Positions 3,186 to 61,377 of a stretch of 64,000 nucleotides of DNA are shown here, piece by piece; position 1 is the first letter of the stretch, and each line of letters starts with the position of its first letter. Location: contig NC_061771.1 in assembly GCF_022458985.1 (NCBI RefSeq), positions 28,512,001 to 28,576,000 on the forward strand, read 5' to 3'. The translations under genes were made by a program, and so were the position numbers. A model generated the notes under the pieces. The model was not told where the DNA came from and searched no databases. It worked only from the letters and a program-made list of their open reading frames with translations. The stretch is from Mugil cephalus. Lineage: Eukaryota > Chordata > Actinopteri > Mugiliformes > Mugilidae.

Positions 3186-3446
3186 GATCAGTCATAACAT
3201 TATGACCACCTTCCTGATATTGTGCCTCCAAAAGTGGCACAAGGGCACAAAAGTGTTTTTGTGTGTGTGTCAGGCTGCATCCTGCTGTCATTGCTATGGG
3301 CTGGGGGGGTCTGGCCTGGTCTGGTCTGGTCTAGGTGGGAGCTACATGTCTAAGTAACATCCACTCGAAGAACACCGAATTGTCACAAGATGGTTTTAAA
3401 TGTTAATTACGTCTCCTGTCAGTGGTCATAATGTTGTGGCTGATCA
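3186..3446. mobile_element. Non-autonomous Tc1/mariner-like element, copy 1
   Basis: The left end reads GATCAGTCATAACATTATGA and the right end is its inverted counterpart, TCATAATGTTGTGGCTGATC. The ~261-bp interior holds a (GT)n run, GTCAGGCTGCATCCTGCTG and a (CTGGT)n run, with no transposase frame. The ends resemble those I know from fish Tc1-like transposons, so a deleted derivative is likely. Confidence 0.7.
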
Positions 3447-11800: not shown

Positions 11801-14800
11801 GGTGTTTACCATCTGCGAAGCCTTGAGCTCGACCGATGTACCTGCTCCTGAATGTCAGGAGTGGAACCTAAAAATAAGCAGCGCTGTCGCACAGAATCAG
11901 AATCAGAATCAGCCGCGGCAAACGTAGACCAACGCACGGTTAAAATGAAGCGCGCTGGACGTCCTTCGGGCTGTAGCGTCTGATGGAAGAGGTCGCTCGG
12001 CGTGAGTGGGAAGTGTGCCGCAGCACCCGGAGCGACTCTGTTTGACAACACATCAGCCTCAACCTATTTCAGCCATTAGGAAGCTTTCCCTCGTCGTCCA
12101 GATTTGCCCTGCTCTTAAACTCCCGGGCAGTTTGCCCTAAATGTACTTATGTGCGCCGTCCAACCTGAAATATAATACCCTCGATAAATCTGGTGCCTTT
12201 TCCTCACGTAGTGTTTTTAAGTGCCGTCCGATAGTGTGTCTGTGAACCTTGTTGAGAGCATCTGAATCAGCGCCAGTAGCTCGTTATTTGTTTGTTCTTG
12301 CGCTCTTTCGGGGCCAAACACAGCAGCTCTCATGGCTGATAGTCATGAAAAGCAGCATACATGATGGCTTTAATTAAAGATGGCAGCTACTTTGCACTCT
12401 GAAGAAACTTAAAAACGCTGGATCTGAATGTCACACAGATCATTGTCTTGTCTTTGATTTTTGCTAACTGGTACCTATAGGAGTACTTAAGCTCAGTAAA
12501 TCTGTATACTCTTAAATACTTCGTATAAATGTACAATGTCCCGATTCAGTTAAATATCAGTTTATTTAGAGATGTTTCGGTTTAAGAGCAAGTTATGGAA
12601 GAGATTTTCTCAAAACTGTTGCTGTGATTGGTTCCAGATCGGTTCCTTCAGTGCGTTTACATCCACAGTTTAATGGAGCTATGATTGAAATTCGACTTTC
12701 TGACTTGTCCCAGTTTACATCCAAAGAAAAACATCGAACAGCGGGAACATGTCCTCCTCCTCCTCACTAGGGCACAATATATGTCTTTTTATTGTGTTAA
12801 TACGGCCCCTTTCTGGTCGACCTATGACATCATATAATAAACAGCTGGAGTCGTTCATGTGTCAGACCGAGACTTCAAACAACAACAAGATGGACAATAT
12901 TTTATAGATTTTTTTAAGATAGACAGATAAAGTGGTTCCTCTATCAACTCTGTTTACCTTCTTCTTCTTCTGTGACCGTCTTTCTCGGATGTTTTTGTTC
13001 TGGGGTCATACACCAGAGCTGTGGTTGTGGAACATGTGCACATGCGTTGTCCAGTTAAAGTCTGATTAAGTGTATACATGCTGGAGAAAATTGATTTCCA
13101 ATCACATTATCTGTGTCTTAATCAGATAAAGAGAACTCCAATTTTAGTCGGAGTAACATGTTTACATGCACATAAGTTGTCCAGTTAAAGTTGGACTAAG
13201 GCAATAATTCACTTATGGACTTTAATGTGGTTGAAAGTAGGGAAGTGTGCATTATATTTATTTTTTTTAGAATCGATGCCACTAACCTGGAACTGATACA
13301 TCTAGAAATATAAAGAACAGTGTAGCCTCTACGTATCACGATACGTATCACGATACTTGAGTGTTTATTATGATATTGCGACATAGTGCAATATTCCACA
13401 TAGTTCACTGAGAAAGTTTAAATGCTGCTTGAAATACACACTGTATATATGTACATCAGATGACAGTGATAAGTCATTGGACAAATTGAGTCAAAAAAAC
13501 AGTATTAATTCAAATGATCCATTTCCATTTTATTACATTTATCTATAAAAATGGGTCTTATTAGTTCCTTCTGCTTCCATTTAAACGACGAAGTGCCTCC
13601 AGTTCTAGTGCTTTAGGTGCAGAAGTCGTTCATGATTGATCCAAAACACGACTTTTTCTTTTAAAATCAGTATTGTGTTAAAAAGTTTCATGATATATTA
13701 CCATATCAGTATTTCCCCCCCGCCCTATTAGCCTCATTGGGACGTGTATATATGACTTTTCTATGACTAGTAACTGTAAAACTAAAACTCGACTACTAAA
13801 TGTCACATTGCATTGTCATAATAACTCCCGCTGAGAGCATGTGTGGGACTTTAAGAGGCGTCAGTCACGCTGGTATCTGGTGAAAAGGCGCCTGTCAACA
13901 TGTAATTTAACCCAGTAATCAGCACAGTTAATGATCCTCTTCATGTAACTGATGATATTTAATAATCACAAGGCGAATGATTGCGAGACGGTTCTGTGCT
14001 CTGTGTTCAACCTGCAGCCTGAATGTGACTCTGCTGTGGTGTTTCCTAGATCAACAGGACAGTATGGCCACCACTGTTGCCGTCAGTCCCAGCGAATACC
14101 TCCAGCCCTCCACCGCTTCTGCACAAGTGAGTAAGAGCCAGACCCCCCCCCGGCTTCACTGTTCACCCCATTTTTCAGTGGCATTTTCAGTTGTTTTCAC
14201 CGGTTTCTACAGAATTAAATCTAAATTCATCACATTCTTAAAGCGATCTGGTTTTACAGTAGAAGACTGATAATAAACAAACTCCCTGAACAACCAACAT
14301 AAAACGTAGATTTATAGATAAATGTAAAAACGATATTGTGATTTATTCTGATTTGAACATAAATAGCTAATACTCATATATGATTTGATAAATTTCCAGG
14401 TCTGGAAAAGTATGGAAAATGCAAAGTAGTGTATGGAAAAATATTCATGTTTCCAAGACTGTTCAATTTTCTAAAACACAAAATTATGAATATCTAAAAA
14501 TAAAAAAAAACTGCACTGAATTTATCTGGGTTTGAGTTTATTTGTTTGAGCTACATTACCGAGCTGTAATTAGTTGGTGACGTAAAAGCATAAATATTCA
14601 GAAAACAATGAAAACAAAAGCCATAAATTCGATTTTGATTTTTTTTTACCAGGAAATTTGGAAATTAGGGTCTGGAAAAGTGTGTAATTATTGAAATTTC
14701 ATATGTGCAGGAGCCCTGTAGGAGTAAATATCAGTTAAAAGCCCTAGAAAGCTTTGAATTTTTGCTTATTTGCGACGTTATTTGGGTTCAATGTAACTTC

Positions 14801-17800
14801 AGTCAGCGTCTTCCTTCCTCACACAGACCATTAGCTGAGTGGCTGGAGTTTAGTTTAGTTTGAGCCAAATGAACAATCACTCACTACAATGAACGTCTTA
14901 GTGATTAAATCCTCTAAGGAACACTTTGCTCAACAAGAACTTTTTTTTGGGAAGCATTTTGATTTATTTTTTTAGCTCTCGTCATGGTTTATATACCTCA
15001 GGCACCTTAAGTCATCCAGTCTATGTAACAGTACGTCATTCACGTATCTGACCAAAAAAACAACTGCAGAAGGAGTTGAATAATTGAATAAAATCAACTG
15101 GACTTGTAGAATTTTCTTGAAGAAGTTTCATCCGAGTAGCTTCTTCAGTTCTGAGAGACTGGAGGGAAGTTGAGGTTTTAAATAGGAAAACTTAACGACA
15201 GGTAAGTACCCGGCCTTTATGGAAATTAGTGGCACCAGTTTCTGGTCTAGGTGCTGGTGAGTTTCCCTATTTAAACCTCAGCTTCCCACCAGCCTCTCGG
15301 ATGGTGCCAGTTGCCTTTATTCAACACCTCTTGGGTTTGATTTACCTGAAATAGTTTCACCAGAGAGGTGAGATGTTTGTTGAGGATCTGGATCGATAAA
15401 GCTTGGTCCTGAATCTGTCTAATCCTTGACTTCCCGTAGGACACCCAGCCCTCTCCTCTGGCCCTCCTGGCCGCCACCTGCAGTAAAATTGGCCCCCCCG
15501 CCGCTCAGGCCCCCGTCACGTCTCCGCCAGCGCAGCCTCAGCCTCGCCGCCTCCTTCCCATAAAGCCCGCCCCCATCGCCCCAGCTCCCCCCAAGAACCT
15601 GGGCTTCCTCTCCGCCAAGGGGAATGTGATCCAGCTCCCCGCCGGCCTGGGCTCCACGGCCTCCGGCAGCCCCATCGTCCTCACCATCCAGCAGAGCCCC
15701 ACCCGCACCGGCGCCTCCGCCCCGGCCAACATCCAGTACCAGATGATGCCGCAGATCCAGGGCGCCCAGACCATCCAGGTGATGCCGCAGGGGGGCCAGA
15801 TCCAGCTCATACCGGGCACCAACCAGGCCATCATCACCACCCCGATGACGGTGCCGGCCCCGGCCGCCGCCGCCGCCGCCGCCGCCGCCCCCATCACTCC
15901 CCAGAAGACGGTCGCCATCAAGCCCTCCCTGAAGCTGAGGAAGCCCAACAGCGCAGCCGCGAACATGGTGCAGCTCCCCGGCGGACTCACGCTGCCCCTC
16001 AACGTGGCCACGGGGGAGGTGGGCGGGGCTCAGATCGTCACGGAGACCTCGGCCACGACTCCGAATCCCGGGAAGGGACGACGGGGGAGGAAGAAGAAAA
16101 TCATCCTGGCGGCCGAACCTCAGCCGCCGTCTTCAACTCAGGCCGCCTCCCCGTCCCCAGAGCAGATGGAAACCATCCTGATAGAAGCCGGAGACAACAT
16201 CATACAGGTACAGAGCTCTGGTTGGATTAGTCTTTACTGTAGTTCACACAGTTACTGGATCTGGTTTCAGGGAAAGTTGTTTGGTTTTAAGGCAAACACA
16301 AGGTTCATCGTTGACGTTCAGGACTCGTACTTTGATAGATTTCTTCCTTATAAACCAGCAGGAGTTCTATGTGTTTTGGTTTGTATTTGCTGCATGATCA
16401 GACATTGCTTTTATTATTTTATTGCACCATTTTCCTCAGTTTACCTTTAGGTGTAATGTTACCAGAACACTGCTGTGTAAATGTCAGCAAAAGAAAAGAA
16501 GTGTTTAGTTTTCGGTTGCAGGAGATTTGCAAGAGTCAAAACTGTGCAAAATTAAAAAAAAAAAAAAAAAATCACAATTTGAATTATTCACTTTAACTCT
16601 TTGGTCTTTGAGAGTTTGCATAGAAATATCCGTCATATTTGCTGTGTTAAAGCCAGAGGAGTTTAGTATGAAGAAAGAAAAACTCAAATACCTGATAATT
16701 ATGGTAAAAATGTCTTTTGATAAGTTACTCTTTAAATAATAATCATGTTTATTCTGATGTAAACCAATGAAACTCTGATCTTTTATGTACAAATTTGAAG
16801 TTTCTTCCAAACCTTTAGTGAGAAGTCAAAGCTTATATGATGTTTGGGTCATTGGATTTTCCGTTCAGAAAAAGATATTAAAAAAACAAAAAAATGAGCG
16901 GTTATTTCATTTTTATTTTACAATTCAAAAATAAAAATTTAACTTCAAGGCGTTTTTCTTTATCAGGATCGAGAACGGATCAACAAACCTTAAAAAAAAA
17001 AAACAGTTCTATTTTCATTTTCTGTTTCTAAAAATAAAAAGTAAAAAAACATCTACTCTATGTCAAAAGTTTCTCAAATTCGTCTCACTTGTTAACGAGG
17101 ACTCAAGGACGATTGGATCAGAATTTAAGTGGACGAGAATCCACTAAATATTAGAGACGTCCTGAACTGTATCAAGGCATTTTATTTATTTATTTTTTTA
17201 CAACACTTGCATCGGTATCAGGCTTCAGCCTAATCTTTTGCATTTGTTTTTACTTTGGTTTGTCTGAAAACCAAAACCACATCCATGTTGTGTTAAAATG
17301 TCTTATTCCTCTTCGCTTCCTACAAAAAAAACCTGCAAAACAATGAAGAAGAAAAGACGACTTCTGTTTTAGTGTCAAAGCCAGAGGAATCAAAATCACA
17401 TGACTAAACACAGCTGAAGTCTGAGTTCACCGTATCTGATCCCTGTCCCTCTCTGGACGCGTCTCTGAAAATCTCCGTGCGTCTCGTACGTCCCAGGATT
17501 TACTGACTGCGTCTCCGTGTTTTTTGCAGGCGGGGAACAATTTGCTGATCGTGCAGAGTCCCGGGCAGCCGGCGATGGTGCAGCAGGTGCAGCTGGTCCA
17601 GCCCAAGCAGGAGCCTCAGGTGGTCCAGATCCCCCAGCAGGCCCTGAAGGTGGTGCAGGCCGCCTCCGCCACGCTGCCGCCCGTCCCTCAGAGACAGTCG
17701 TCCAGCCTGCAGGTCACGCCCACGGAGGCGCCACAGGCGCAGGTATCCGCTCAGACCGCGACCTCTCTCGTCCACGTGGTGTGAGGGAGGTGTTCCTGGG

Positions 17801-20800
17801 GATAAGATCGCGTCTTTATAGTCTAATTATTTTACCGGGGGACGTTTACTAGACGCTCGGCGACGTAACGGCGCCGGTTTTGTTGGAGTTTTATCTGCTC
17901 TTGGGAAATCGTGAGGGTGAATAGATTTGAGAGTCGTATCCTTTTTTGTGTTTGGTCTGAGCCTGTAGTTATGATTAGATCATATGATGATCTCCATCAT
18001 TCTGATCTCAAGAAATAAAGATTTCCAACGGTGTATGATAGGGATGTGAAAACAACACGTCTTCTATGTTTTCACCTCTTCTCGTATTGAATGGACTGAT
18101 TTAATGTGTTATTGGCTGAGTTTTGTTTTAATCCTTTTATTTATTTAGTGTAAAGTGACCAGATTTCTGAAATGAAATGAAATGTCATCAAGAAGAACTG
18201 AAGAAACAATTAGTTTCATTTATTTTAACATATTTATTCATATTTAAGCTGCTATGTCTCTAATGTCAATAGCAGCCTGACCGGCTACCGTAATACTTGT
18301 AGTCCGTGCGCAACATTTTTTCTCATTCCAAAAAAGTTGGGTACATTTTCGGGGACAACTTTAGTCGGGGGACAGATCATCCAACACTGGGACACCTGGT
18401 ACAGGAGGATGTGTCTCCTTTCTTTCTCCAGGCTCATTAAGTGGGTCTTATCGTTCTCCGGCTTGTGGTTGTAGTTCAGGTGGTGGAATAAATTTGTTGC
18501 TATGACTATCATTTTTTTTTTATTTTTTATTTTTTTAACTTTTTCTACCCGGCTGGTTTTCGGCTGATGGTTCCTCCATATGAGCTGGGTTCTGCTCAAG
18601 GTTTCTTACTGTTAAAAGGGAGTTTTTCCCTCAGGCTTGCTCTGGAGGTTGCAGGCTGGTTTTTGTGAAGCGTCTTGAGACGATTTGTATTGTTATTGGC
18701 GCTATATAAATAAAACTGAATTGAATTGAATTGAATTCTTACAAACCTTGCAGATGGGACAAGTTTGTTCCACCTTATCCACCTTCTGATATTTGAACCA
18801 GTTCCATATTATATGTATATTTAATATACCAACATACTGGTGTATTTCATTACACAGCATTCACAAGGATGCGCCGCAAGACACAATTAAGCCGCAGAAC
18901 GAGGACTTGTGCCAAAAAAAGGTGCCATGTCGGTTGTTTGGGGTTTTTTAGGGGGACTAGACATCCTCGATATTGGATGACCTGTCCCCCGGGTAAAGCT
19001 GCCCCCTGAAAATGTCCCCAATTTTAGCTTTTTATGATGTTTTTATGATGATGTTGCGCGCAGACTACAGTTATTACGGTAGCCGGTCGTGCTGCTACTG
19101 ACATTACAGACATAGTAGGAGTTCTTGATAACATTTTTTCAGCAGACAGTGCTAACACGGGGCCATGCAAACCTGTTTTACTACTCGTGTGGGATTATTC
19201 TACAATATTTACTCATCATCACAGTGAAATAGTCCATCCTTAGTCAATCTACTGTATTAATTCCTCTCTCAACCAGTAGAAAATGTTGATTATGCATAAA
19301 AAAAGCCGTAACATGCCGTCAGAATTTTGAAAAATACTGTGATATACATTTTTGGTCATACTGTCCATCCCTAGTGTATAGAGCTGAAACAAGATACATC
19401 ATTTTATCTAAATGGTATAAAATGTGAAACTTGTTGGAAATCAGGAAGATGTATTTTTTTTTTTTAAATATATATTTTGACATCTTCTTTCCTCAGATCC
19501 TCTTCAAAACAGCTACGGGCGAGTGGCAGTCCGTCCAGATCCAGGACCCCGTCTCCACGGCGACGACCCTCACCACGTCAGTTCCCGCCATCACCACCAC
19601 CACCAACAACGCCGTCAACACCACCTCCTCGCCAGCGGCCGGCGCCAAGAGGACGCAGGCGGGGGGGCGGAAGGAACGGACTTTGGCAAAAATTGCCCCC
19701 GCCGGTGGAATGATGGCGCTGAACACGCCGCAGCTGTCAACGGCGGCGCAAGCCGTGCAGACGATCAGCATCAACGGGGTCCAGGTCCAGGGAGTCCCCG
19801 TTACCATCACCAACGCAGGGGGTGAGCTGATAACGTAGGACTGGTTCTCATGGCTTCATTTAAAAGAAGTTTTCGCTAAACTAATCTCCAGTTTTGTGGT
19901 ATTTTGACCAACTTCTCCCTCTAGTTTCACTTCTTACATGTGTGTTTGCTTTTGTGCGGCTCTTCTCTGTCGTCATACATTTTTAAATCCAATCAGCTTT
20001 CAAGTCTGATGTTGCTCTCAGAGCTGGAGCTTCCGTCATGGTTTGGATCCCCCTCACATCTGGACGAATCTGCATTCGCAGTCTTGTGAAGCAGCAGCGA
20101 GATTTCTAATGAGAGAATCCAGGAAGTGGCTCGTAATTAAGAATCTAGAGGATTTTATGAGTCAGTGTCAGAGCTTCCAATTTCTTTTATATATATATAT
20201 ATATATTTTAAACAGCCCTAGTTGCATAGTTTTTAAATAATGAATAAAGAATGTGATGGGTAAAAATAGGATAAAGGTGATATTAAAAACAAGAACCATG
20301 ACACAGATGGAAACATATTTTACTGTGTATGTAATGACTGATTTTAAGCTGCATTTAAAATTTCTCTGTGAACCACGTAGAATAGTGCAATGTATCGTAG
20401 TATCATGACGTCGTGACTGAAGTATCGTGATATGTATCGTATCGTGAACTTATTGCCAGTACCCACAATATCCATCAGTTGATTTACTTCTAATATGTTC
20501 AGTTTTCTTATTTAAAATAACCAATTGTCACTAGTTAGAAAAAATTAATATTGCAATATATCGAAATATCGCAATAATGTATCGTATCGTGCCTCAAGTA
20601 TCGTGATATGCACCCACCCTTAATATCCATCAAGGTGATATCTTTCTGATATGTTTAGTTCTCTCATTTAAAATTATCAGTAGTCAGTGGTTAGAAAAAT
20701 TTGTATTAGTATTAGTATTGCAATATATCTCATATGACTCAAGTATCGCGATATGTATCGTATCGTGAAGTCCTTGCCAGTACCCACCACTAATATCCAT

Positions 20801-23125
20801 CAAGTTGATCACTCTCTGATATGTTTAATTCTCTTAAATCAACAGTTTATTTACGGTAGAAAAGCTAATATCTTTCATCTGATGCATGTATTTTTTTACC
20901 ATTAATGAGAATTTTCAGATCAGCTCGACTCGTGTCTGATTTCAGAGGATTGTCAGGTCCTGTCTCTTTACTCTGTGTGTCTTTGTGTCCGTCAGGCCAG
21001 CAGCACCTAACGGTACAGGCGGTGCAGGGCGGAGGGCTCCAGCTGGCAGCTACACCGGGCCAACCTGCCATCCAGGTGGACCAGGCCCTCACGCTGGAGC
21101 TGCCGGGTCAACCAGGAGAGAAGAAACGACGCATGGCCTGCACCTGCCCCAACTGTAAAGACGCAGACAAGAGGTGAGCGTCTCCAGAGATGGACGAGCA
21201 CAGATGCACTGTCAGATGACAGGACGCAACGACTCTGAATGTGCTTGTGTTTGTGTGTGTGTGTGTGTGTGTGTGCAGGCCCGGGGAGGTGGGGAAGAGG
21301 AAACACATCTGCCACGTCCCCGGCTGTGAGAAGACGTTCAGGAAAACGTCGCTGCTCAGAGCTCACGTCCGGTTGCACACCGGCGAGAGGCCCTTCGTCT
21401 GCAACTGGGTTTTCTGTGGGAAACGTTTCACACGCAGCGATGAGCTGCAGCGGCACGCGAGGACGCACACAGGTGCTGCAGACACACACAAAACTCAAAA
21501 TTCACAATGATATACTTTATGTGATGCACATGCTTAGACCAGGATATGAAGGTAAAGCTAAGTGATAGTAAACTACACGGTTTGGCCTGTTTGGCAGACA
21601 GGAAACGATGAATGAAACTTCAAAAGTGAAACTAAAAAAAAGACTTTGAATCAAGCAAGTGTGACGAGAGTTTACCCAGAGAGTTTTAAACATACGATCT
21701 AAGAGTGTACTAAGAGTATTGTGATAGTCTGAGAGTGTGAGGTTCTCTTTTATTTAGGTGCAATATTTTTGTAAAATGATGACATCCCTGCATCATTGTG
21801 GTGCGTTCAGAAATGCTCTTTTGCTTCTCTGGGTTGTAACAAGTGGATATTTAAGGTTTCCAATCTCTGACATCAATAAGATATTTTTCAGACCGTTCTC
21901 CGTGTGGTTCAGGGGAGAAACTCTTGTAAATGTTTCTGAAATACTCAAACCAGCCTGTCTGACAACGAGGCCACGTTCAAAGCCGCTTAAATCTCCTTTC
22001 ATCCCTGTTCTGATGCTTGGTTTGAACTCTTCCATTTAAATGTAAGATTAGATTAGGGCCGCAACAACTTGTCGAAGTCAATTAAATATGTTGCAGTGTT
22101 TACTAAAAAAAAAAAGTCTTTATTCAAAAGTGAAAAATGAGCCAGACGTTTCTCGTTGTTAATTCCTTTATCCAGTAGAGGGCAGTAACGAGACCAGTGC
22201 TCCAGAGCCGTATCTTAGAGAGAGTCTGGTCAAGTCAAATCATGGCGCCATGTTTGCTACATCAGAGGTTAGATTCTACAGTGTAACTCTATGGGGCGGA
22301 TGTTGAAATAAATGTCTTATTTTCTCCATTAACGGGCTTATAAATGTTATAACCAACGTCAGTCAGTATGTAAAAGGCCCCCACTTAAATATCCCAGCAT
22401 CTACTTACTTTAAACATCTTAAATGAGCCTGTAAAATGCTTTGTAGCCCAATCACCTCATCAGTCATGGAGCTGTGTTTACCTTCTCCTCAGTCTCCTGT
22501 GTTCATCCATCACCGTTAAAAGTTTGAAATTACTTTATAATTATATTAATATAATATATTATAAATACTCAGAAATAATATAAAAAAAATTAAGCTAGTC
22601 TTAGTGTTATTTAATATTATCATTATAGCATTAGCATGCTAGCCATAATAACTTGGTATTAACTGAGGTAAAGTTACGTGTCAGTTAAATTTGTCTGTCT
22701 ACATGGACATGAATTACATGAAACACATGGGTTTGACAGTATATATGATGGTAGCTGCTATTATTCTAAACATTTATTCTAGATAACTAGCTAGCATAAG
22801 GCTAACCTAAAGCTAGGTTAACTTCAAACGAACTACTTCAACTACTTGCTGCATACATTTAAGAAATAATCCCTAGCTGCAGCCCTAGATAAGATATTTT
22901 GTTTAATGAGGAACTGTAAACCAAATGTTGAGTTTTGGACAAACAGTGAAAGATTTAAGATTTTTCCTTTTACTGAATTTTGCATTAAAATTTCACTTAC
23001 GACTTCTTCTCTTTTTCCTCACAGGAGACAAACGCTTTGAGTGCAGTCAGTGTCAGAAACGCTTCATGAGGAGCGACCACCTGACGAAGCATTACAAGAC
23101 TCACATAAACGCCAAGAACCTGTGA
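8854..23125 (+). CDS. sp2: Transcription factor Sp2, complete
   Basis: Coding exons are 8854-8860, 14050-14126, 15440-16207, 17530-17742, 19497-19821, 20996-21173, 21279-21472 and 23025-23125. All joins keep frame and give 620 residues (human SP2 is about 613). The N-terminus [20 protein letters not shown] and [18 protein letters not shown] are SP2 hallmarks. Exons 3-5 encode glutamine- and proline-rich transactivation segments ([41 protein letters not shown]), an alanine run of about ten GCC codons, and a basic GRRGRKKK patch. The C-terminus has the Buttonhead-type box CTCPNCKD and three C2H2 fingers (CHVPGC...H, CNWVFC...H, CSQC...H) with the KTSLLR, RSDELQR and RSDHLTK recognition helices. 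Sp2 is a nuclear GC-box regulator that often works with NF-Y. The exon 2 acceptor at TTTCCTAG is chosen because it restores MSD...; the later CAG would shift frame. Start confidence is high. Confidence 0.96.
9960..10036 (+). repeat. LINE-like 3' tail fragment
   Basis: GAATTTACCCATTGTGGGGC followed by AAATAAAGGCGTATCTTATC ends in a short tandem repeat (TATCT). This is the pattern of truncated fish LINE or SINE 3' ends. The 5' limit is unclear. Confidence 0.5.
10101..10684 (+). mobile_element. CAGYRCGTTTACATG-ended element, copy 1 (sp2 intron 1)
   Basis: The 584-bp segment starts CAGCGCGTTTACATG and ends CATGTAAACGTACTG, an imperfect terminal inverted repeat. Internal landmarks are CTAGGTGGCGATATGTGTCT and GGTTCTTCTACTGGCTCTG. 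Related copies lie at 11098-11466, 12649-13212, 30433-30774 (reverse) and 46431-46951. No protein is encoded, so it is probably a non-autonomous DNA transposon. Confidence 0.65.
11098..11466 (+). mobile_element. CAGYRCGTTTACATG-ended element, copy 2 (5' truncated)
   Basis: It shares the internal block (TCTCGTACGTAATGTGTGCGC, then CCCTCAGGCGGTTCTTCTAC) and the right end (CATGTGTATGTAAACGTAC) of copy 1. The left half is missing. Confidence 0.6.
12649..13212 (+). mobile_element. CAGYRCGTTTACATG-ended element, copy 3
   Basis: It starts CAGTGCGTTTACATCCAC and continues through the shared block near 12780 (CACTAGGGCACAATATATGT) and 12930-12990. The right end decays near 13212, after AAAGTTGGACTAAGGCAATA. 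Confidence 0.6.
15090..15300. repeat. Dispersed repeat fragment just upstream of sp2 exon 3
   Basis: The CTTGAAGAAGTTTCATCCGA - GTAGCTTCTTCAGTTCTGAG motif is one I know as a common fish repeat. It includes a short self-complementary GAAGAAG/CTTCTTC pair. It lies 150-350 bp upstream of the exon 3 acceptor. Class not assigned. Confidence 0.4.
18249..19120. mobile_element. Foldback element with ~150-bp inverted arms in sp2 intron 4
   Basis: The segment 18249-18316 is nearly the reverse complement of 19053-19120 (GGCTACCGTAATACTTGTAG against ACTACAGTTATTACGGTAGC). The match continues inward at lower identity, about 18340-18400 against 18955-19030 (GGGGGACAGATCATCCAA against TTGGATGACCTGTCCCCC). 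The centre carries an L2-like LINE tail. The outer TAGGGATG at 18039 and CATCCCTA at 19366-19373 may be the ends of a larger hAT-like element, with imperfect flanks GTGTATGA and GTGTATAG. Confidence 0.7.
18560..18736 (+). mobile_element. L2-like LINE 3' tail
   Basis: TCTGCTCAAGGTTTCTTACT, then GTTAAAAGGGAGTTTTTCCC, then GGCGCTATATAAATAAA followed by (CTGAATTGAATTGAATT), is the recognisable 3' end of fish L2-type LINEs. Only the tail is present, inserted inside the foldback element. Confidence 0.75.
20390..20850 (+). repeat. ~160-bp tandem repeat with ATCGTATCGTG motif in sp2 intron 5
   Basis: Three diverged units carry ATCGTGATATG(TATCGTATCGTGAA) at about 20424, 20601 and 20744, and TAATATCCATCAA at about 20465, 20622 and 20790. 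The unit is about 157-168 bp. No coding potential. Confidence 0.65.
21249..21278 (+). repeat. (TG)n tract forming the sp2 exon 7 splice acceptor
   Basis: An uninterrupted TG run reaches directly to the GCAG acceptor of exon 7 (exon starts 21279). It takes the place of a normal pyrimidine tract. Confidence 0.85.
22054..22887. mobile_element. hAT-like element in sp2 intron 7
   Basis: The left end TAGGGCCGCAAC and right end TAGCTGCAGCCCTA form a terminal inverted repeat of the TAGGGCTGCAACTA type known from hAT elements. Flanks are GATTAGAT (22046-22053) and GATAAGAT (22888-22895), an 8-bp target duplication with one mismatch. There is no transposase frame; the interior may contain nested repeats. 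Confidence 0.75.
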
Positions 23126-28518: not shown

Positions 28519-47331
<18,813 letters not shown>

Positions 47332-48057
47332 GGTGGACGAAAGACGCCGGGATCTGACGTTTTCCACTTTATCTCCGCGTTATTTTTGTCTTTTAGTGCC
47401 TCACATTCTTTACAGACTGATCACATGGTTGAAGCAGAGAAGCTGTGAGTTCCAGTTGAAGGAAGCAGCTGCTTGGACTCAGAGATGATGCGTCTGTGGC
47501 TGATCTGAGTTAAAACGACACTTTAATTAGTTTTTTCCTGTTCAATCGGATTTTGGGGCATATTTGTAGCTTCATAGTGTTTATCCAGGTTTTTTTTTTT
47601 TTGGAAAGGATCGACTTAATCTCAGCCACGTCATCATAGAGTCAAAATGTCTTATTCCTTCGTTGCATCACCTCATAGTGAAGCTTTTGCTTTGCTTCTT
47701 AATGCTTCATGCAGCTTCTGCAAACAACCCTATGATCTTTTTAATCTCATTGTATTTATTTGTGGTATTTTTTTTTTTTAAAAACAGTGCGGGTTTGTGG
47801 GTTTAAGAGCTTCACTGTGATTTTCCCTGCATGCACTGGGGGGGGGGGGGTGACCCAGTTGCGGCTCTTATTCACCACATCTCATTTCCGTCCATGTGCT
47901 CAGTTCCTCGTCTCTGGTTCCAAAGCACAAAGAACTATGAATTAAACTAATGTACACGAAGAACATGATGTGAAATCCATGAAATATCCTGAGAGCTGAA
48001 TTAAATGGAGTTATTCTTTTTGCATTTTACTGAGGGAAGTGACTTTTGTTACCTGCG

Positions 48058-50535: not shown

Positions 50536-50604
<69 letters not shown>

Positions 50605-50866
50605 TTATTGTTCCTAAATGTTTTTTTGTGTGTGTGTCTGCGTCAGGCTGTATCCCGCTGGGTGCCATTTCTATGGGGTGGGGGGTTTTGCCTGGTCTGG
50701 TCTGGTCTGGTCTGGTCTACTGACCAAGAGTGATTGTTTGTATTTGCTTTTAAATAGTTTTAATGTAAACAGGTCCTACAGTTTCCCGGCAGGACGCCGA
50801 ATCGTCACAAGGCGGTTTAAACGTTACTAACTTCTCCTGTCGGTGGTCATAATGTTATGGCGGATA
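50377..50866. mobile_element. Tc1/mariner-like element, copy 5, with (TTA)n insertion
   Basis: The left end is CCGATCAGCCACAACATTAT and the right end is GTCATAATGTTATGGCGGAT. The interior shares GTCAGGCTGTATCCCGCTG and (CTGGT)n with copy 1, plus a long (TTA)n run. A further family right end at 50945-50973 suggests nesting or a partial duplication. Confidence 0.65.
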
Positions 50867-51179: not shown

Positions 51180-53289
51180 AACCTGTTCGCCTGCTTCATA
51201 TCCAGTTCTCCTCCAGTGGCCGGCGCTCCTCTCCCTTATTCGCAGCCTGCAGAGCGAACAGCATGGACCGATAAGCCCGGCCGTGACAACCCTGACGACT
51301 CCGCTTCACCCGCACAGACTGCATGGACCCTGAGGTCAGTCCTTCATTTATTTCTTTTTTTATTTATTTATTAGTTAGAAGTTATTAGTTGACTCTTCAT
51401 CCTGTGTGAGCTGCAGTTCAGTTTCAGTTGCCACCATCATGCAAGAAGTTTCTGTCAAGCCAGTATCCACACACACCCTGAGACGTGCAGATGTTCTCCA
51501 GAGGTTTCAGTGTCGTGTTTAATTAAATACATTTCTGTTTCTACAGTGTATTCACATCTCTCTGTTAGCAGCAGACTGGTTTTTATTGTGTGTCCTTTTA
51601 AATTTGTCTGTCTCTGTGCTGAGTCTGTATTATCTGTTCTGTAGCAGGGGGGTGGAGGGGAGGTTGGGTTTCTCTTTTTATAACTATGTGCATGTGCACT
51701 TTGACTTAAACCTGTAAAGTGTTTAATGTGTAACTCGGTGGTAAATCAGCAGCTTCCTTCAGTCAAATGTGTGCACCTGTGGGATTCGTGAAGATGTCTA
51801 ATTTTTTATTTTTTTATTTTTGCAAAATCTTTTTGAAGCTCACTATCAGAAACTTCCCATCAATACAGATTTCTATACTTAACATAATAGTGATGCAGTG
51901 TTGACGGTGTAAAGCCACAGCTTTTTAAATCACGCCTGCTTAAGGTTTAATTTAAATATGAAATTGCTCACACAACATTCTTCATGTGATGTGGGTGACG
52001 CTCAGCCTCGTTCATCCAGCTCCTATACGCACCTTATTTCAGCATCAGCCAGGATTTCTCTTAGAAAGAAGCAGGTGTGGTCGCAGAGACTTTGTGTCCT
52101 CACGGAAAGGAACAGTCATAACAAAAAAAACAAAAAAAAACAGCACGAGATGTGCCAGCGGCGCTCTCCTGTTAAACCTGTTCCCGGTTTTCCTCAAGGC
52201 CATAACTCAAATACCTGAGATATCCACCTGCAGAGCCTCTACCTGTGTGTACAGTACAGTAGTGCGCCAACTACACCCACCTTCCACCTTATGGTTATAT
52301 ATGAGGCTTAATGCAGCATTTTATTTTATCTAAAAAAATATATATATATATATATATTATTTATATCTTGATAAATGTGGAGATGAGATGGAAGCATCGC
52401 TTCTATCACTTGTTAGTGACAAAGAACTTTTTGTTCTTGAAATATTTTTTCGTATTTTCTCATTACTCGTGACGTTGCTCTCTAAATGCATTGTTTGTTT
52501 ATTTCAATAATTAAAGTGATTTCTGCCTGTTATCTTTTTCAGCCTTGTCTGTCTAGACTTTTATCTCTGACGCAGTTTCTCCCTCTGTGCTGTTTCTGTT
52601 TGTTATTTTTGACCGGAGCGTACGTGCTATACATTATATAATGTATCATGTATATACACCGATCAGGCATAACATTATGACCGTAATACTGTGCAGGTCT
52701 CCAAAACAGTTTTGACTCATCCGAGAATGGACATGGGTCTTCTGAGGGGGTCATGTGGCAGGTCTAAAGATGGCCATTGTTATTCTTCTGTCAGTGGTCA
52801 TAATGTTGTGGCTGATCGGTATATGTTGCTTTCTTCATTTATTATAATCACTATTTTCTTTTGTCCTGCAGGTTTAGCGAAGAGGGACAGAATACTAGAA
52901 TCATGGTATGAAACATCAACATATTGTTTAGGTCTTTGTCAAATACTTAAAACAAACAAAGATGCTTAAATTTTACTTTTAATTTGACCTACTTTCTGAA
53001 ATGTTTATCTGTTTCTTTTTTGTTGTTGTTGTTTGTTTGCAGCCGTCACACCGCAGAGGAAGGAGTCTCTCTGAGGCCCTGACCCTGGAACAGTCAGATG
53101 AGGGGGGGGTGGTCATTTCCAGCATCAACAATGTCTCATCCACCCAGGGACTGAGAGAAGGTAAAAACCTCGACGGGTCATTAAATCTTTTTTGCCTTTT
53201 TTCTAAATTAGTTTTGACTTCCTGGAAATATGTAACATAGACATAGACAATACTGTCCTAGTGTTTAGAGAATAATAATAATAATAATG

Positions 53290-53330
<41 letters not shown>

Positions 53331-56300
53331 CAAAGTATTACAAAATAATACATTCACAAAATATTATTATTATTATTAATAATAATAATAACAACAATAA
53401 TAATAATAATAATAAACTGGTATAATACTAGTAAAGTAGTAATAAATAAATACATAAATAAATGAATTAAATAAGAAAACTACATCTGCAAAAAGATTTG
53501 CCTGTGCATCGTAATTTATTGAGGAGTAATTTTTTTGTTTTTTCTTTTCTTTTTTTTTTAGTGAATGTAAATGGGAATTTCAAGCTTTTACATCGCTCAC
53601 TGTACTTGTATTTTTACAGGCTGTGGTCAAATTACAGGTTACTTAATCATAAATATAAAAATGTTTTAATTCTAAGGCTACCTTGGTGGATTTGCACACA
53701 TGTCAGTTTGCAGCAACGTGTCATTGTTCTTTTTTTTTTTCTTTTTCAGGCGATGAAATTCTGGGGGCAACGATCAATTTCGATCAGCTGTCAAAAGAGG
53801 AGGTGTTAAAAGTACTGAAGGTGATTGAGCCCTTCAATGACAAGGTCCAGGTCCTTACTCGAAGCAACCTGAGCAAAAGCATGGGGAATTTGGACCAGTG
53901 CGCCAAGACTCCCGAGACGGTTGGTGAAATTCAGACTGAATTAATGCATCTTTAGTAAAATGATCTGAGGTGGATGGCAACAATTGTTTAAATATTTTTT
54001 TGCAGTTTGCTGTAAAACAAATAATCAAACTAATCTAGTACCCCTCCTTAATCAGGAGGACATGGACACTGATACTGTAATGTCATTCTAATCACCAAGT
54101 TGTGGCTTATATTTCTAGATGCTGCAGGATTCCTACAACAAACTCTACAACGACAAAATCAAGAAGTTCATAAAGGCAGACTTGTCTGGTGCTAAGGGGG
54201 GCTATGGGAATGGGGAAGTTTCAGCCGCATCCAAGAAACACAACACAGACTTGCCTCGCCTCGGAGTTGACTTTGGACTCAGGAAATCCACACCTTTGAG
54301 TGCAGACACTAATGCTAATCCACAATCTGATGTTAGAGATCTAACAGATGGCTGCAATCTGAACCTACCACCGTTGGGCATCGGCTTGAATGGGACTACT
54401 CTAAGTGACGCTCAGGTACCAAGACTTAAAGTTGATGCTCGAAGTCCACAGCTTAATGGTCCAGACTGCCACGTGTCTGGGACATTACCAGGAGGTACAA
54501 ACACTGATCGTCCATCAGTTGGCTTGGCAATGCCAAACAGAACTTGTGAATCTCCAGAAATGGGTATTGACATGGGTTCAGGTGTTACTGGACCTAGAAT
54601 GGGTATTAACCTTGATGGGGGAAATATTAGTGGTCCATCTTTTAACACTAGTGTTCCCACAGTGAACATTGAGCGAACAGACCAGGAATTCAAAATGCCA
54701 AAATTCAAAATACCAGTGATGGATTTCTCAGGACATTCAGATGCACAGACCCCAGATATTCCATCAGGTAAACTCCATGTCAAGTCTTCCAAGAAACTGA
54801 AAACCCCAGATCTAACTCTGGATGACCCTTCCAGTTATGTAGGATTACCCAAACCTAGGCTGTCTGGGAGATCAACTGATTTAGACCTAGACATGCCAGA
54901 TGTGACTGTATCACAACCTGATGTAAATCTACCCAAAGCTCCATCACTTGGCATCAAAGGGCCATCTGGAAAATTCAAGGCCCCTAAGTTCACAATGCCC
55001 AAATTTGATTTACCAGACATTAAAGCGCCACATTTAAATGGAAACTTAGAGGGACCAGATCTGGGATTGTCAGGTACAAAGCTGAAGGGGATAGATGCTG
55101 AACTGAAAACTCCAAACATTGCTGGCCCACAATTTAAAGGGGTTATCGGTTCTCCAGATTTGAATCTATCTGATATGGATCTTGGTAAACCCAACCTAGA
55201 TCTTACGAGCCCAGATGCCAACTTACATATGACCTCAAGTACATTCAAAGCACCAGCAATGAAGAATGCAAATATTGACTTGAATGCTCCTGACCTGCAT
55301 ATTGATGCTCCCTCTAGCAAATTTAAAATGCCTAAATTTAACCTTTCAGGTACAGGGGCAAATATGGACCTAAACTCAGACCTAAAATCCCCTGATCTAA
55401 GTCTCAAATCTCCAAAGATAAAGGGTAGGATTGATGCCCCTGACATGGACCTACCAAACATGGATCTCAAAGCTCCAAAGTTAGATATTAACACTCCAGA
55501 TGTCAACATTGGCTCCCCCAAAACACAGTTTAAAATGCCAAAGCTGAAGATGCCGAAATTTAACGGCCCAAACCTGAAAGGACCTGAAATTGATGGTAAC
55601 TTAGATGGTCCAGACTTTGATGTCAATGCACCCAATTTCAACCTCAAAGGTCCTAAAGCTGATCTAGATGTTGATGTTTCTGGTCCATCTGGAAAATTAA
55701 AAAAGCCTAAATTCAGCATGCCTAGTTTTGGGCTGTCTGGTCCAAAATTAGATGGTCCAGACTTGGACCTAAACCCACCTGATTTAGATATATCAGGTCC
55801 CAGTCTCAGTGCACCAGACATAAACCTCCCCAAGGCTGACCTCAAAGGCCCAAAGATGGACCTGGATGCCCCAAATCTCAACTTAGACATGCCATCAGGC
55901 AAACTGAAAATGCCAGAACTTCATGGTCCAGACTGGGATGTTAATGCGCCTTCAGGCAAACTGAAAATGCCCAAATTTAATCTCTCAGGTACATTACCAA
56001 AAGGACCAAATTTGGACCTAAATGCAGACATGAAGTCTCCAGATTGGGATCTGAAGGCTCCAAAACTAAAGGGAGGAATAGATACCCCTGACATGGACCT
56101 ACCAAACATGGATCTCAAAGCTCCAAAGTTAGATATTAACACCCAGATGTCAACATTGGCTCCCCAAAAACAAAGTTTAAAATGCCAAAGCTGAAGATGC
56201 CGAAATTTAACGGCCCAAACCTGAAAGGACCTGAAATTGATGGTAACTTAGATGGTCCAGACTTTGATGTCAATGCACCCAATTTCAACCTCAAAGGTCC

Positions 56301-59300
56301 TAAAGCTGATCTAGATGTTGATGTTTCTGGTCCATCTGGAAAATTAAAAAAGCCTAAATTCAGCATGCCTAGTTTTGGGCTCTCTGGTCCCAAGGTAGAT
56401 GGTCCAGACTTGAACTTAAACCCACCTGACCTAGATATATCAGGTCCCAGTCTCAGTGCACCAGACCTAAACCTCCCCAAGGCTGACCTCAAAGGCCCAA
56501 AGCTGGACCTGGATGCCCCAAATCTCAACTTAGACATGCCATCAGGCAAACTGAAAATGCCAGAACTTCATGGTCCAGACTGGGATGTTAATGCTCCTTC
56601 AGGCAAACTGAAAATGCCCAAATTTAATCTCTCAGGTACATTACCAAAAGGACCAAATTTGGACCTAAATGCAGACATGAAGTCTCCAGATTGGGATCTG
56701 AAGGCTCCAAAACTAAAGGGAGGAATAGATACCCCTGACATGGACCTACCAAACATGGATCTCAAAGCTCCAAAGTTAGATATTAACACCCCAGATGTCA
56801 ACATTGGCTCCCCAAAAACAAAGTTTAAAATGCCAAAACTAAAGATGCCTAAATTTAAGCATCCAAACTTGAAAGGACCTGAGATTAATGGTCCAGACTT
56901 TGATGTCAATGCACCCAATTTCAACCTCAAAGGCCCTAAAGCTGATTTAGATGTTGATGTTTCTGGTCCATCTGGAACATTAAAAAAGCCTAAATTCAGC
57001 ATGCCTAGTTTTGGGCTCTCTGGTCCCAAGGTAGATGGTCCAGACTTGGACCTAAACCCACCTGACCTAGATATATCAGGTCCCAGTCTCAGTGCACCAG
57101 ACATAAACCTCCCCAAGGCTGACCTCAAAGGTCCAAAGCTGGACCTGGGTGCCCCAAATCTCAACTTAGACATGCCATCAGGCAAACTGAAAATGCCAGA
57201 ACTTCATGGTCCAGACTGGGATGTTAAAGCACCCTCAAGCAAACTGAAAATGCCCAAATTTAATCTCTCAGGTACATTACCAAAAGGACCAAATTTGGAC
57301 CTAAATGCAGACATGAAGTCTCCAGATTGGGATCTGAAGGCTCCAAAACTAAAGGGAGGAATAGATACCCCTGACATGGACCTACCAAACATGGATCTCA
57401 AAGCTCCAAAGTTAGATATTAACACCCCAGATGTCAACATTGGCTCCCCAAAAACAAAGTTTAAAATGCCAAAGCTGAAGATGCCGAAATTTAACGGCCC
57501 AAACCTGAAAGGACCTGAAATTGATGGTAACTTAGATGGTCCAGACTTTGATGTCAATGCACCCAATTTCAACCTCAAAGGCCCTAAAGCTGATCTAGAT
57601 GTTGATGTTTCTGGTCCATCTGGAAAATTTAAAAAGCCTAAATTCAGCATGCCTAGTTTTGGGCTCTCTGGTCCAAAGTTAGATGGTCCAGACTTGGACC
57701 TAAACCCACCTGATCTAGATATATCAGGTCCCAGTCTCAGTGCACCAGACATAAACCTCCCCAAGGCTGACCTCAAAGGCCCAAAGCTGGACCTGGGTGC
57801 CCCAAATCTCAACTTAGACATGCCATCAGGCAAACTGAAAATGCCAGAACTTCATGGTCCAGACTGGGATCTTAACGCGCCTTCAGGCAAACTGAAAATG
57901 CCCAAATTTAATCTCTCAGGTACATTACCAAAAGGACCAAATTTGGACCTAAATGCAGACATGAAGTCTCCAGATTGGGATCTGAAGGCTCCAAAACTAA
58001 AGGGAGGAATAGATACCCCTGACATGGACCTACCAAACATGGATCTCAAAGCTCCAAAGTTAGATATTAACACCCCAGATGTCAACATTGGCTCCCCAAA
58101 AACAAAGTTTAAAATGCCAAAGCTGAAGATGCCGAAATTTAACGGCCCAAACCTGAAAGGACCTGAAATTGATGGTAACTTAGATGGTCCAGACTTTGAT
58201 GTCAATGCACCCAATTTCAACCTCAAAGGCCCTAAAGCTGATCTAGATGTTGATGTTTCTGGTCCATCTGGAAAATTAAAAAAGCCTAAATTCAGCATGC
58301 CTAGTTTTGGGCTCTCTGGTCCGAAGTTAGATGGTCCAGACTTGAACCTAAACCCACCTGACCTAGATATATCAGGTCCCAGTCTCAGTGCACCAGACAT
58401 AAACCTCCCCAAGGCTGACCTCAAAGGCCCAAAGCTGGACCTGGGTGCCCCAAATCTCAACTTAGACATGCCATCAGGCAAACTGAAAATGCCAGAACTT
58501 CATGGTCCAGACTGGGATGTTAACGCGCCTTCAGGCAAACTGAAAATGCCCAAATTTAATCTCTCAGGTACATTACCAAAAGGACCAAATTTGGACCTAA
58601 ATGCAGACATGAAGTCTCCAGATTGGGATCTGAAGGCTCCAAAACTAAAGGGAGGAATCGATACCCCTGACATGGACCTACCAAACGTGGATCTCAAAGC
58701 TCCAAAGTTAGATATTAACACTCCAGATGTCAACATTGGCTCCCCAAAAACAAAGTTTAAAATGCCAAAGCTGAAAATGCCGAAATTTAACGGCCCAAAC
58801 CTGAAAGGACCTGTAATTGATGGTGACTTAGATGGTCCAGACTTTGATGTCAATGCACCCAATTTCAACCTCAAAGGTCCTAAAGCTGATCTAGATGTTG
58901 ATGTTTCTGGTCCATCTGGAAAATTAAAAAAGCCTAAATTCAGCATGCCTAGTTTTGGGCTCTCTGGTCCGAAGTTAGATGGCCCAGACTTGGACCTAAA
59001 CCCACCTGATCTAGATATATCAGGTCCCAGTCTCAGTGCACCAGACATAAACCTCCCCAAGGCTGACCTCAAAGGCCCAAAGCTGGACCTGGGTGCCCCA
59101 AATCTCAACTTAGACATGCCATCAGGCAAACTGAAAATGCCAGAACTTCATGGTCCAAACTGGGATGTTAATGCTCCTTCAGGCAAACTGAAAATGCCCA
59201 AATTTAATCTCTCAGGTACATTACCAAAAGGACCAAATTTGGACCTAAATGCAGACTTGAAGTCTCCAGATTGGGATCTGAAGGCTCCAAAACTAAAGGG

Positions 59301-61377
59301 AGGAATAGATACCCCTGACATGGACCTACCAAACATGGATCTCAAAGCTCCAAAGTTAGATATTAACACTCCAGATGTCAACATTGGCTCCCCAAAAACA
59401 AAGTTTAAAATGCCAAAGCTGAAGATGCCGAAATTTAACGGCCCAAACCTGAAAGGACCTGAAATTGATGGTGACTTAGATGGTCCAGACTTTGATGTCA
59501 ATGCACCCAATTTCAACCTCAAAGGTCCTAAAGCTGATTTGGATGTTGATGTTTCTGGTCCATCTGGAAAATTAAAAAAGCCTAAATTCAGCATGCCTAG
59601 TTTTGGGCTCTCTAGCCCCGAGTTAGATGGCCCAGACATGGACCTCAGTGGCCCAAATGTTGACTTAGACATGCCATCAGGGAGAGTGAAAACTCCAAAG
59701 ATAAAGGGAGGAATCAGTACTCCTGACTTGCCCAACATGGACCTTAAAGCTCCAAGATTAGATATAAATGCTCCAGATGTCAACTTTGGCTCCCCAAAAA
59801 CCAAGCTTAAAACACACAAATTGAAAATGCCTAAAGTTGAGCTGGCAGGCCCAAAAGGACCTGAGGTTGATGGCAATTTTAATGGCCCAGACATTGACAT
59901 GAGTGCACCAAACTTCAATCTCAAAGGTGCGAAAACTGGAATTCCAGATGTTGGTTTTGGCAGCCCATCAGGGAAGCCCAAAAAGTCACGTTTGAACTTT
60001 CCTGATGTAGGGTTTTCTCGTCCAAAGTTCGATGGCCCTAACTTTGATGTTAATTCGCCAGATCTAAATGCCAAGGGACCAAATTTGAAATTAAATTCAA
60101 ACCTTAAATCTCCAAAGCTGAAAGGTGGACTCGACGGCCCAAGGATCGGCTTACCAGATGTTGACCTCAGTTCTCCCAAGTTGGATATGAACTCACCAGA
60201 TGTCAACCTTGGTTTCCCAGATGCAAAATTCAAAAAGCCCAAAATCAAGACGCCAAAGGGCCCCAATGTTGACATCAGTACGGACCTACATGGGCCAAAT
60301 ATGAATATTCCGGATTTAGATGTTAATGGTCCTAAAGGAAAACTAAAAATGCCAAGTTTACATAAACCAGATCTCAGTCTGTCAGGACCTAACCTGAGCG
60401 GTTCAGATTTAGATTTAACTTTACCTGATGCCAGTTTCATGGGTCCTAAGTTAGATCTCAATGGAAAATATCCTGATGCTAGAATAGATGGTAACATTGG
60501 ACGACCTGACTTAAACTTTGCTGGCCCTCAAGTTAAAGGAAACTTAAGAGGTCCAGACATTGATGGTCCTGATTTTGACTTGGGAGAAAGAAAGTTCAGG
60601 CTCCCAACTTTCAAGATGCGCCCATTTGGAAGCCCAGATCTTAACAGGGGAGGTTCTGATATTGACTTCACCACATATCAAAGACCAGCACATCTAGATA
60701 TTTCTCCCCGAAATGCAAAATACAACATGAACGCAGACATTCTTAAGGGAGATTTTACACGTCCAAACATGGACCTCTACAGCCCTCCAATGGCAATGAG
60801 CAGTCCACAGCTACACCTAAGATCTCCAGATCTTAACATTGACGATATTTCATTAAATATGCAAAGACCTCCTCCTAGGAATCGCAAATCAGACATGACA
60901 GGTATGAACATGAGAATACCCGATCTGGACATAGATGGAAGACTTCATCACCCAGACAGAAATTCCCCTAGAATGAGACTTAGGTCTGGGCAGCCTCTGC
61001 TCAGTGATGTTTTAAGCCGGGGTGTTGATTTCCATCGTTCAGATCTCAACATTGATGATTTCACAGGAAAAGATCATGTGCTCAGAGCCAGAGGTTCAAC
61101 ACCTGACCTCCGTACAATACGTGACAGTGGACAGGACTTCTACCATTCAGGACTAGACATTGACATGGGGCGCAGTAGAAAAATCAGAAGGCCGCCTGAC
61201 GGTGCAGACGGATACTTTGTCACCGTTTTTCCTTCTCAAACACAAAGCCAAAGAATGCCAAACCGTAAATACAACACACTCGGAGCACCCGACTTTAATT
61301 CAGGAAACATAGACCTTGAAGTCCCAAGAAAATATGACCAAAAAGGTTCAACATACCTCTTCTCCAACCTTGTGTAG
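51180..61377 (+). CDS. AHNAK-like giant scaffold protein (frame broken once)
   Basis: Exons proposed: 5' exon ending 51334, optional exon 52872-52905, then 53043-53160, 53750-53919 and a terminal exon 54119-61377. The last three coding joins keep frame. AHNAK proteins are large cytoplasmic and membrane-associated scaffolds with an N-terminal PDZ-like domain and long MPKFK/GPDVD-type repeats; the whole repeat region sits in one exon, as here. Exons 53043-53919 give SDEGGVVISSINNVSS, GLREGDEILGATINF and VLKVIEPFNDKVQVLTR, a PDZ-like fold of the AHNAK/periaxin type. The body is built on MPKLKMPKF, GPDFDVNAPNFNLKGPKADL and SGKLKKPKFSMPSFGLSG. The terminal exon is open 54119-56194, then shifts frame at a C run (56142-56144, CCC where other units have CCCC) and is open again to the TAG at 61375-61377. 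As read, the protein stops after about 788 residues; the family-sized product would be about 2.5 thousand. A periaxin-like paralogue is possible. Confidence 0.85.
51263..51274 (+). promoter_or_regulatory. Short upstream ORF in the AHNAK-like 5' exon
   Basis: ATG GAC CGA TAA precedes the second start ATG GAC CCT GAG (51323-51334), which runs to the donor GAG|GTCAGT. Both share GCATGGACC. Confidence 0.45.
52653..52824. mobile_element. Tc1/mariner-like element, copy 6 (AHNAK-like intron)
   Basis: It starts TATACACCGATCAGGCATAA and ends CATAATGTTGTGGCTGATCG then GTATA. At about 171 bp it is a short non-autonomous copy, ending ~48 bp upstream of the optional exon at 52872. Confidence 0.75.
52872..52905 (+). 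other. Candidate optional start-codon exon of the AHNAK-like gene
   Basis: A good acceptor (TTTTGTCCTGCAG) and donor (ATG|GTATGA) bound a 34-base exon whose last three bases are ATG. Spliced to 53043 it starts the protein MPSHRRGRSLSEAL. If exon 1 reads into it, MDPE is followed by GTT TAG, so the upstream frame ends at once. If it is skipped, exon 1 joins 53043 in frame and gives MDPEPSHRRGRS. Confidence 0.55.
53270..53425 (+). repeat. (AAT)n microsatellite
   Basis: ATA/AAT trinucleotide runs, broken by short interruptions, fill this part of the AHNAK-like intron between 53160 and 53750. Confidence 0.85.
55535..59620 (+). repeat. Tandem 648-bp coding repeat of the AHNAK-like gene
   Basis: The anchor ATGCCAAAGCTGAAGATGCC (or a close variant) recurs at 55535, 56182, 56830, 57466, 58114, 58762 and 59410. 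Spacings are 647, 648, 636, 648, 648 and 648. The 647 marks the one-base loss; the 636 marks a four-codon deletion in the unit at 56830. The last unit diverges after about 59620. By eye the units are nearly identical at the nucleotide level, far closer than the flanking, older repeats at 54700-55500 and 59620-60600. Confidence 0.95.

Follow-up and report, generated by a model that had tools for sequence, protein, structure and literature searches.

In genes of the AHNAK, AHNAK2, and periaxin (PRX) family, a PDZ domain divided among small exons is phase-joined to a giant exon built of tandem repeats. The repeat unit is given as ~128 residues for AHNAK, and AHNAK2 is described with 24 units of 165 in a giant exon of ~17.6 kb (PMC10682155). 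In this work, we found an AHNAK/AHNAK2-type gene on the + strand in the 3′ part of a Mugil cephalus window (the whole stretch of DNA analyzed, 64,000 nucleotides), with two small coding exons and a giant exon in the same arrangement (Table 1). This locus differs from AHNAK and AHNAK2 in its repeat unit, which has 216 codons and occurs in six near-identical copies; from AHNAK2 in the length of the giant exon (~7.3 kb); and from the family as a whole in the presence of a one-base frame break.

The giant exon spans ~54119-61377 (7.26 kb). Its tandem repeats and long open frames agree with the single giant repeat exon that characterizes the family, and its repeat text presumably resembles AHNAK. 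The N-terminal PDZ domain of the family is likewise found here on small upstream exons. When these exons were joined and searched against solved structures, the best PDZ match was AHNAK2 (4cn0; E 5.9e-05, residues 30-77), which is the sole AHNAK/AHNAK2/PRX match among the four sequences listed at E up to 0.01; the remaining three are GGA1 (E 0.006-0.007), and periaxin is absent from these four. The frame 53659-53952 by itself matches AHNAK2 at E 0.0081. In Pfam, the joined exons have a weak match to PDZ (15.1 bits, below the cut-off of 23.2), neither PDZ-exon frame searched singly matched any family, frame A matches only DUF4097, and weakly (18.7 bits against a cut-off of 22.9), and no family was matched by frame B. 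A viral_contigs search gave 17 stretches that fit a pattern, with none confirmed as a relative. The AHNAK-like identity that an earlier note on this DNA had proposed for the giant exon is supported, and the predicted gene product is an AHNAK/AHNAK2-type protein with a PDZ domain and a long repeat tail.

Frame A is the frame that continues from the PDZ exons by phase, and it begins 'MLQDSYNKLYNDKI'. We infer this join because its splice sites (donor 53920, acceptor 54119) were selected by phase and score low (3.2 and 0.9 bits, respectively, with a simple matrix). Judging from the family structure, the giant exon is probably also the last exon, and a transcript with a frameshift in its last exon should escape nonsense-mediated decay.

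Table 1. Positions of the features of the AHNAK/AHNAK2-type gene in the window.
Feature	Position	Strand	Remarks
Coding exon, PDZ first part	53043..53160	+	AG before 53043, GT after 53160; putative splice sites
Coding exon, PDZ second part	53750..53919	+	putative donor, placed by phase
Giant exon, frame A	54119..56191	+	phase-joined to PDZ exons; stop 56192-56194
Giant exon, frame B	56140..61377	+	stop 61375-61377 included
Break	56142..56144	+	one base fewer than sister junctions
TTTAAAA heptamer	56176..56182	+	in phase for a -1 slip out of frame A; part of the normal unit
Unit u1	55499..56145	+	647 nt, break near its end
Units u2-u6	56146..59373	+	648, 636, 648, 648, 648 nt
Unit u6	58726-59373	+	last near-identical unit
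Unit u7	59374..59775	+	shortened, partly diverged, 402 nt to next anchor

Several other features were observed in the window. An ABC transporter gene of subfamily C lies at 29000-47400 on the + strand, and its first large exon resembles MRP1 over ~308 residues (E 3.2e-35); we take this gene to be ABCC10, with a 3′ limit that is likewise assumed. Two minisatellite arrays with a unit of ~33 bp (41393-42723 and 43339-44195) are located between the ABC-transporter-domain matches, and the latter contains a long antisense open frame of 303 codons. The zinc-finger gene at 15440-23122, presumably Sp2-like, has C2H2 fingers at 21220-21507 and 22910-23122, while no Pfam family was matched by its frame 15440-16447. 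Among the matches listed, diverged copies of one interspersed repeat (~69-83% alike) are found at 3249-3445, 38181-38422, and 50600-50865, and those of a second family at 10100-10690, 12648-13210, and 46426-46951.

Six near-identical units lie within the giant exon, each 216 codons long apart from one with 212. The start-to-start spacing of near-identical copies is 648 nt in four cases, 636 nt in one, and 647 nt in one, with 402 nt to a diverged copy. Spacings of 648 and 636 are multiples of three, and the spacing of 647 falls across the break, where CCC is found within ACACCCAG (56139-56146). The six other near-identical junctions are evenly divided between ACACCCCAG, with CCCC, and ACACTCCAG, with CTCC; the break junction is one base short of either. 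The diverged later junctions at 59776 and 60199 are likewise in frame-B phase. Alignment of the six units with MAFFT has one single-base gap, in u1 alone (column 644 of 648), one in-frame gap of 12 nt in u3, and no further gaps. Unit spacing, sister junctions, and alignment thus confirm the frame break that the earlier note had described, as well as the extra base at the other junctions (the ACTCCAG quoted there is the end of ACACTCCAG). Unit u3 (56794-57429) is the odd member of the array, with the most private changes and a cluster of them at columns 66-69. On the - strand, antisense frames of 211-459 codons are open over whole repeat units at 56568-60527, probably as a side effect of the array's codon composition.

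Frame A is open for 691 codons, as had been claimed; 675 of these end at 56143, and the other 16 are out of frame. Frame B, previously given as 1731 codons, is open from 56140 to 61374 and has 1745. Both frames are open to their stops, with neither another lesion nor a compensating second indel, and the whole repeat unit can be read partly in frame A and partly in frame B, with the switch at the break. At the CCCC junctions, the first differences to the left and right of the break are 196 and 152 nt away between u4 and u5, 186 and 152 nt between u3 and u4, and 193 and 44 nt between u2 and u3; the corresponding distances at the CTCC junctions are 57 and 20, 33 and 50, and 111 and 99 nt. Because the flanks nearest to those of the break belong to CCCC junctions, a putative origin in a C run is favored, short of proof. 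The earlier assignment of the lesion to a C run agrees with these flanks, but the CTCC of three of the six sister junctions means that a C run is not required.

Purifying constraint is evident over the array as a whole. The values summed over all 15 pairs of units are 0.064 for pS and 0.014 for pN (pN/pS 0.23), with no stop. Changes private to one unit include 17 synonymous and 16 that are not in the six units (p 0.0012), and 13 and 15, respectively, in u2-u6 only (p 0.013), with a neutral expectation of 25.5% for the synonymous share in the absence of constraint. None of these changes creates a stop, but a stop fraction of 0.026 per random change makes the absence of stops among 33 changes little informative. 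Much of the constraint signal comes from u3 (9 synonymous, 6 not). With u3 removed, 4 synonymous and 9 nonsynonymous private changes are left in the downstream units (31% synonymous vs. 25.5% under neutrality), a near-neutral share that does not demonstrate very recent constraint on the downstream part. An old pseudogene was rejected, with one lesion in 7.26 kb and the pN/pS given above.

These patterns bear on a real, very recent one-base frameshift, either segregating or newly fixed, which would leave a PDZ protein with ~675 giant-exon codons and a 16-residue tail. Zero further lesions in 5.2 kb fits a young allele, and gives a 95% upper bound on the age of the break of 0.0039-0.0087 neutral substitutions per site (~0.4-0.9%), assuming an indel/substitution ratio of 0.15-0.05, respectively, and frameshifts as 0.8 of indels. 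Neutral divergence of 0.4-0.9% is in the range of within-species differences. Because of this bound, an old pseudogene is excluded while a segregating allele still has room. The near-neutral share of recent downstream changes is also compatible with such an allele, and loss of AHNAK is survivable in mice, where knockout animals have skeletal changes that progress with age (PMC10682155). However, constraint across the whole array speaks against a real frameshift, and we consider it possible but on balance doubtful. The earlier note had argued from the missing further breaks; this argument is half as strong as stated, as it favors a recent or false break without choosing between an error and a within-species loss-of-function allele.

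Programmed -1 frameshifting would link frame A to frame B and yield a short and a long product. A heptamer of the X_XXY_YYZ form, T_TTA_AAA, is present in phase within the 52-nt overlap of the frames, starting 32 nt past the C run and 16 nt before the frame-A stop. However, the same heptamer occurs at the same unit position in seven copies (one extra TTTAAAA is located at 57628, elsewhere within a unit), and among 1720 arbitrary frame-B shift points, 171 would meet such a heptamer before a stop when Y is A or T, and 226 with any Y. A slip at this site would also change ~12 residues in a unit that is conserved elsewhere. Downstream RNA folding is ordinary (z -0.55 and -0.35), and near-identical downstream sequence is present in copies that have no shift. 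The C run itself offers no slip site, and frameshifting there was rejected because slip-competent codons are absent. The combination of a junction heptamer and a specific downstream structure that marks programmed -1 sites was not found, and we regard this mechanism as very improbable. The earlier note had ranked it as less likely; an in-phase candidate site does exist, although it belongs to the ordinary unit. Even more far-fetched is a population that carries the truncated AHNAK-type protein (PDZ plus ~2.0 kb of coding sequence) and makes some full-length product via T_TTA_AAA slippage, such that the array would partly buffer its own frameshifts.

An intron within the giant exon could also excise the break and join the frames. 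A donor-like site at 54768, before the break, scores 7.5 bits, equal to the donor of the gene at 53161 (7.5), and four acceptor-like sites past 56140 (3.2, 2.9, 2.5, and 1.4 bits) exceed the putative acceptor of the giant exon (0.9). However, these acceptor-like sites are far below the other two acceptors of the gene (18.1 and 7.0), scoring with so simple a splice matrix makes for a weak test, and the sister copies require no intron. We consider such an intron very unlikely.

The claim that the break stems from an error or a very recent mutation is supported, and of the two we judge an artifact likelier, with recoding unlikely. The shortfall of one base is probably a consensus error of base-calling, assembly, or polishing; the odds among these readings are a matter of judgment, not calculation. 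In this scenario, the long-read consensus would have dropped one base at the break, and the true exon of the organism would be a single open frame of ~2,420 codons. The ~350 nt around the break are identical to the junction between u4 and u5 save the break itself, so short reads are not uniquely placeable there and short-read polishing would be powerless. Reads would presumably fail to support the shortfall, and the assembly may have been built from a read type prone to such errors. Consistent with an error, this is a lone lesion in an otherwise open 7.26-kb exon, for which 0.7 errors of any kind are expected at the error level cited in the literature, where short indels with frameshifts are described as the commonest kind of error. 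For bacterial assemblies, the authors of Polypolish describe repeats as making short-read alignment unreliable, with errors that often persist there (PMC8812927). In an earlier zebra finch assembly, false indels led to false introns of 1-2 bp in PCDH17; such indels clustered in GC-rich 5′ regions, and Illumina-based assemblies had fewer of them (PMC9516821), a setting other than the present one. The false frameshift indels of PCDH17 and TLK1 (PMC9516821, PMC8081667) resemble the present case in that a small indel disrupts a coding frame, but those were judged by reads or second assemblies, whereas the break here is known from one assembly sequence.

Other observations argue against an error. 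A run of four is short, and 16 five-base and 7 six-base runs in the same exon are free of lesions. The neighboring ABCC exon aligned over ~308 residues has no break, nor do an ABC_membrane piece (108 residues), an ABC_tran piece, and the zinc fingers, although these matched pieces are too short for setting an error rate. For an assembly of HiFi grade, the balance would tip toward a real allele.

For related work, searches on AHNAK frameshifts in fish and AHNAK repeats in zebrafish found no study of such a break in a fish AHNAK gene among the papers listed, as far as titles and the beginnings of abstracts tell. In Mozambique tilapia, ahnak missense variants are reported within a sex-determining region (PMC8692795), with no shown link to this window.

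The break is most likely not a new mechanism, and instead a consensus error or a very young mutation; what is new is the ~350-nt match around it, which defeats unique placement of short reads. If it is an error, this locus would exemplify how polished assemblies stay wrong at junctions in near-identical coding arrays, and such errors then give split gene models or false introns of 1-2 bp. A real break would instead amount to a truncating allele, of a known kind, in a giant scaffold gene. Truncations in human periaxin neuropathy, although in a different gene of the family and a different organism, similarly lose the long tail and, by position, keep the PDZ domain in most cases (PMC7072810). In the Mugil cephalus gene, a real break would remove 1744 codons of frame B, ~72% of the giant-exon coding sequence, and strict translation would end at the stop after the 16 stray codons, leaving less than a third of the protein.
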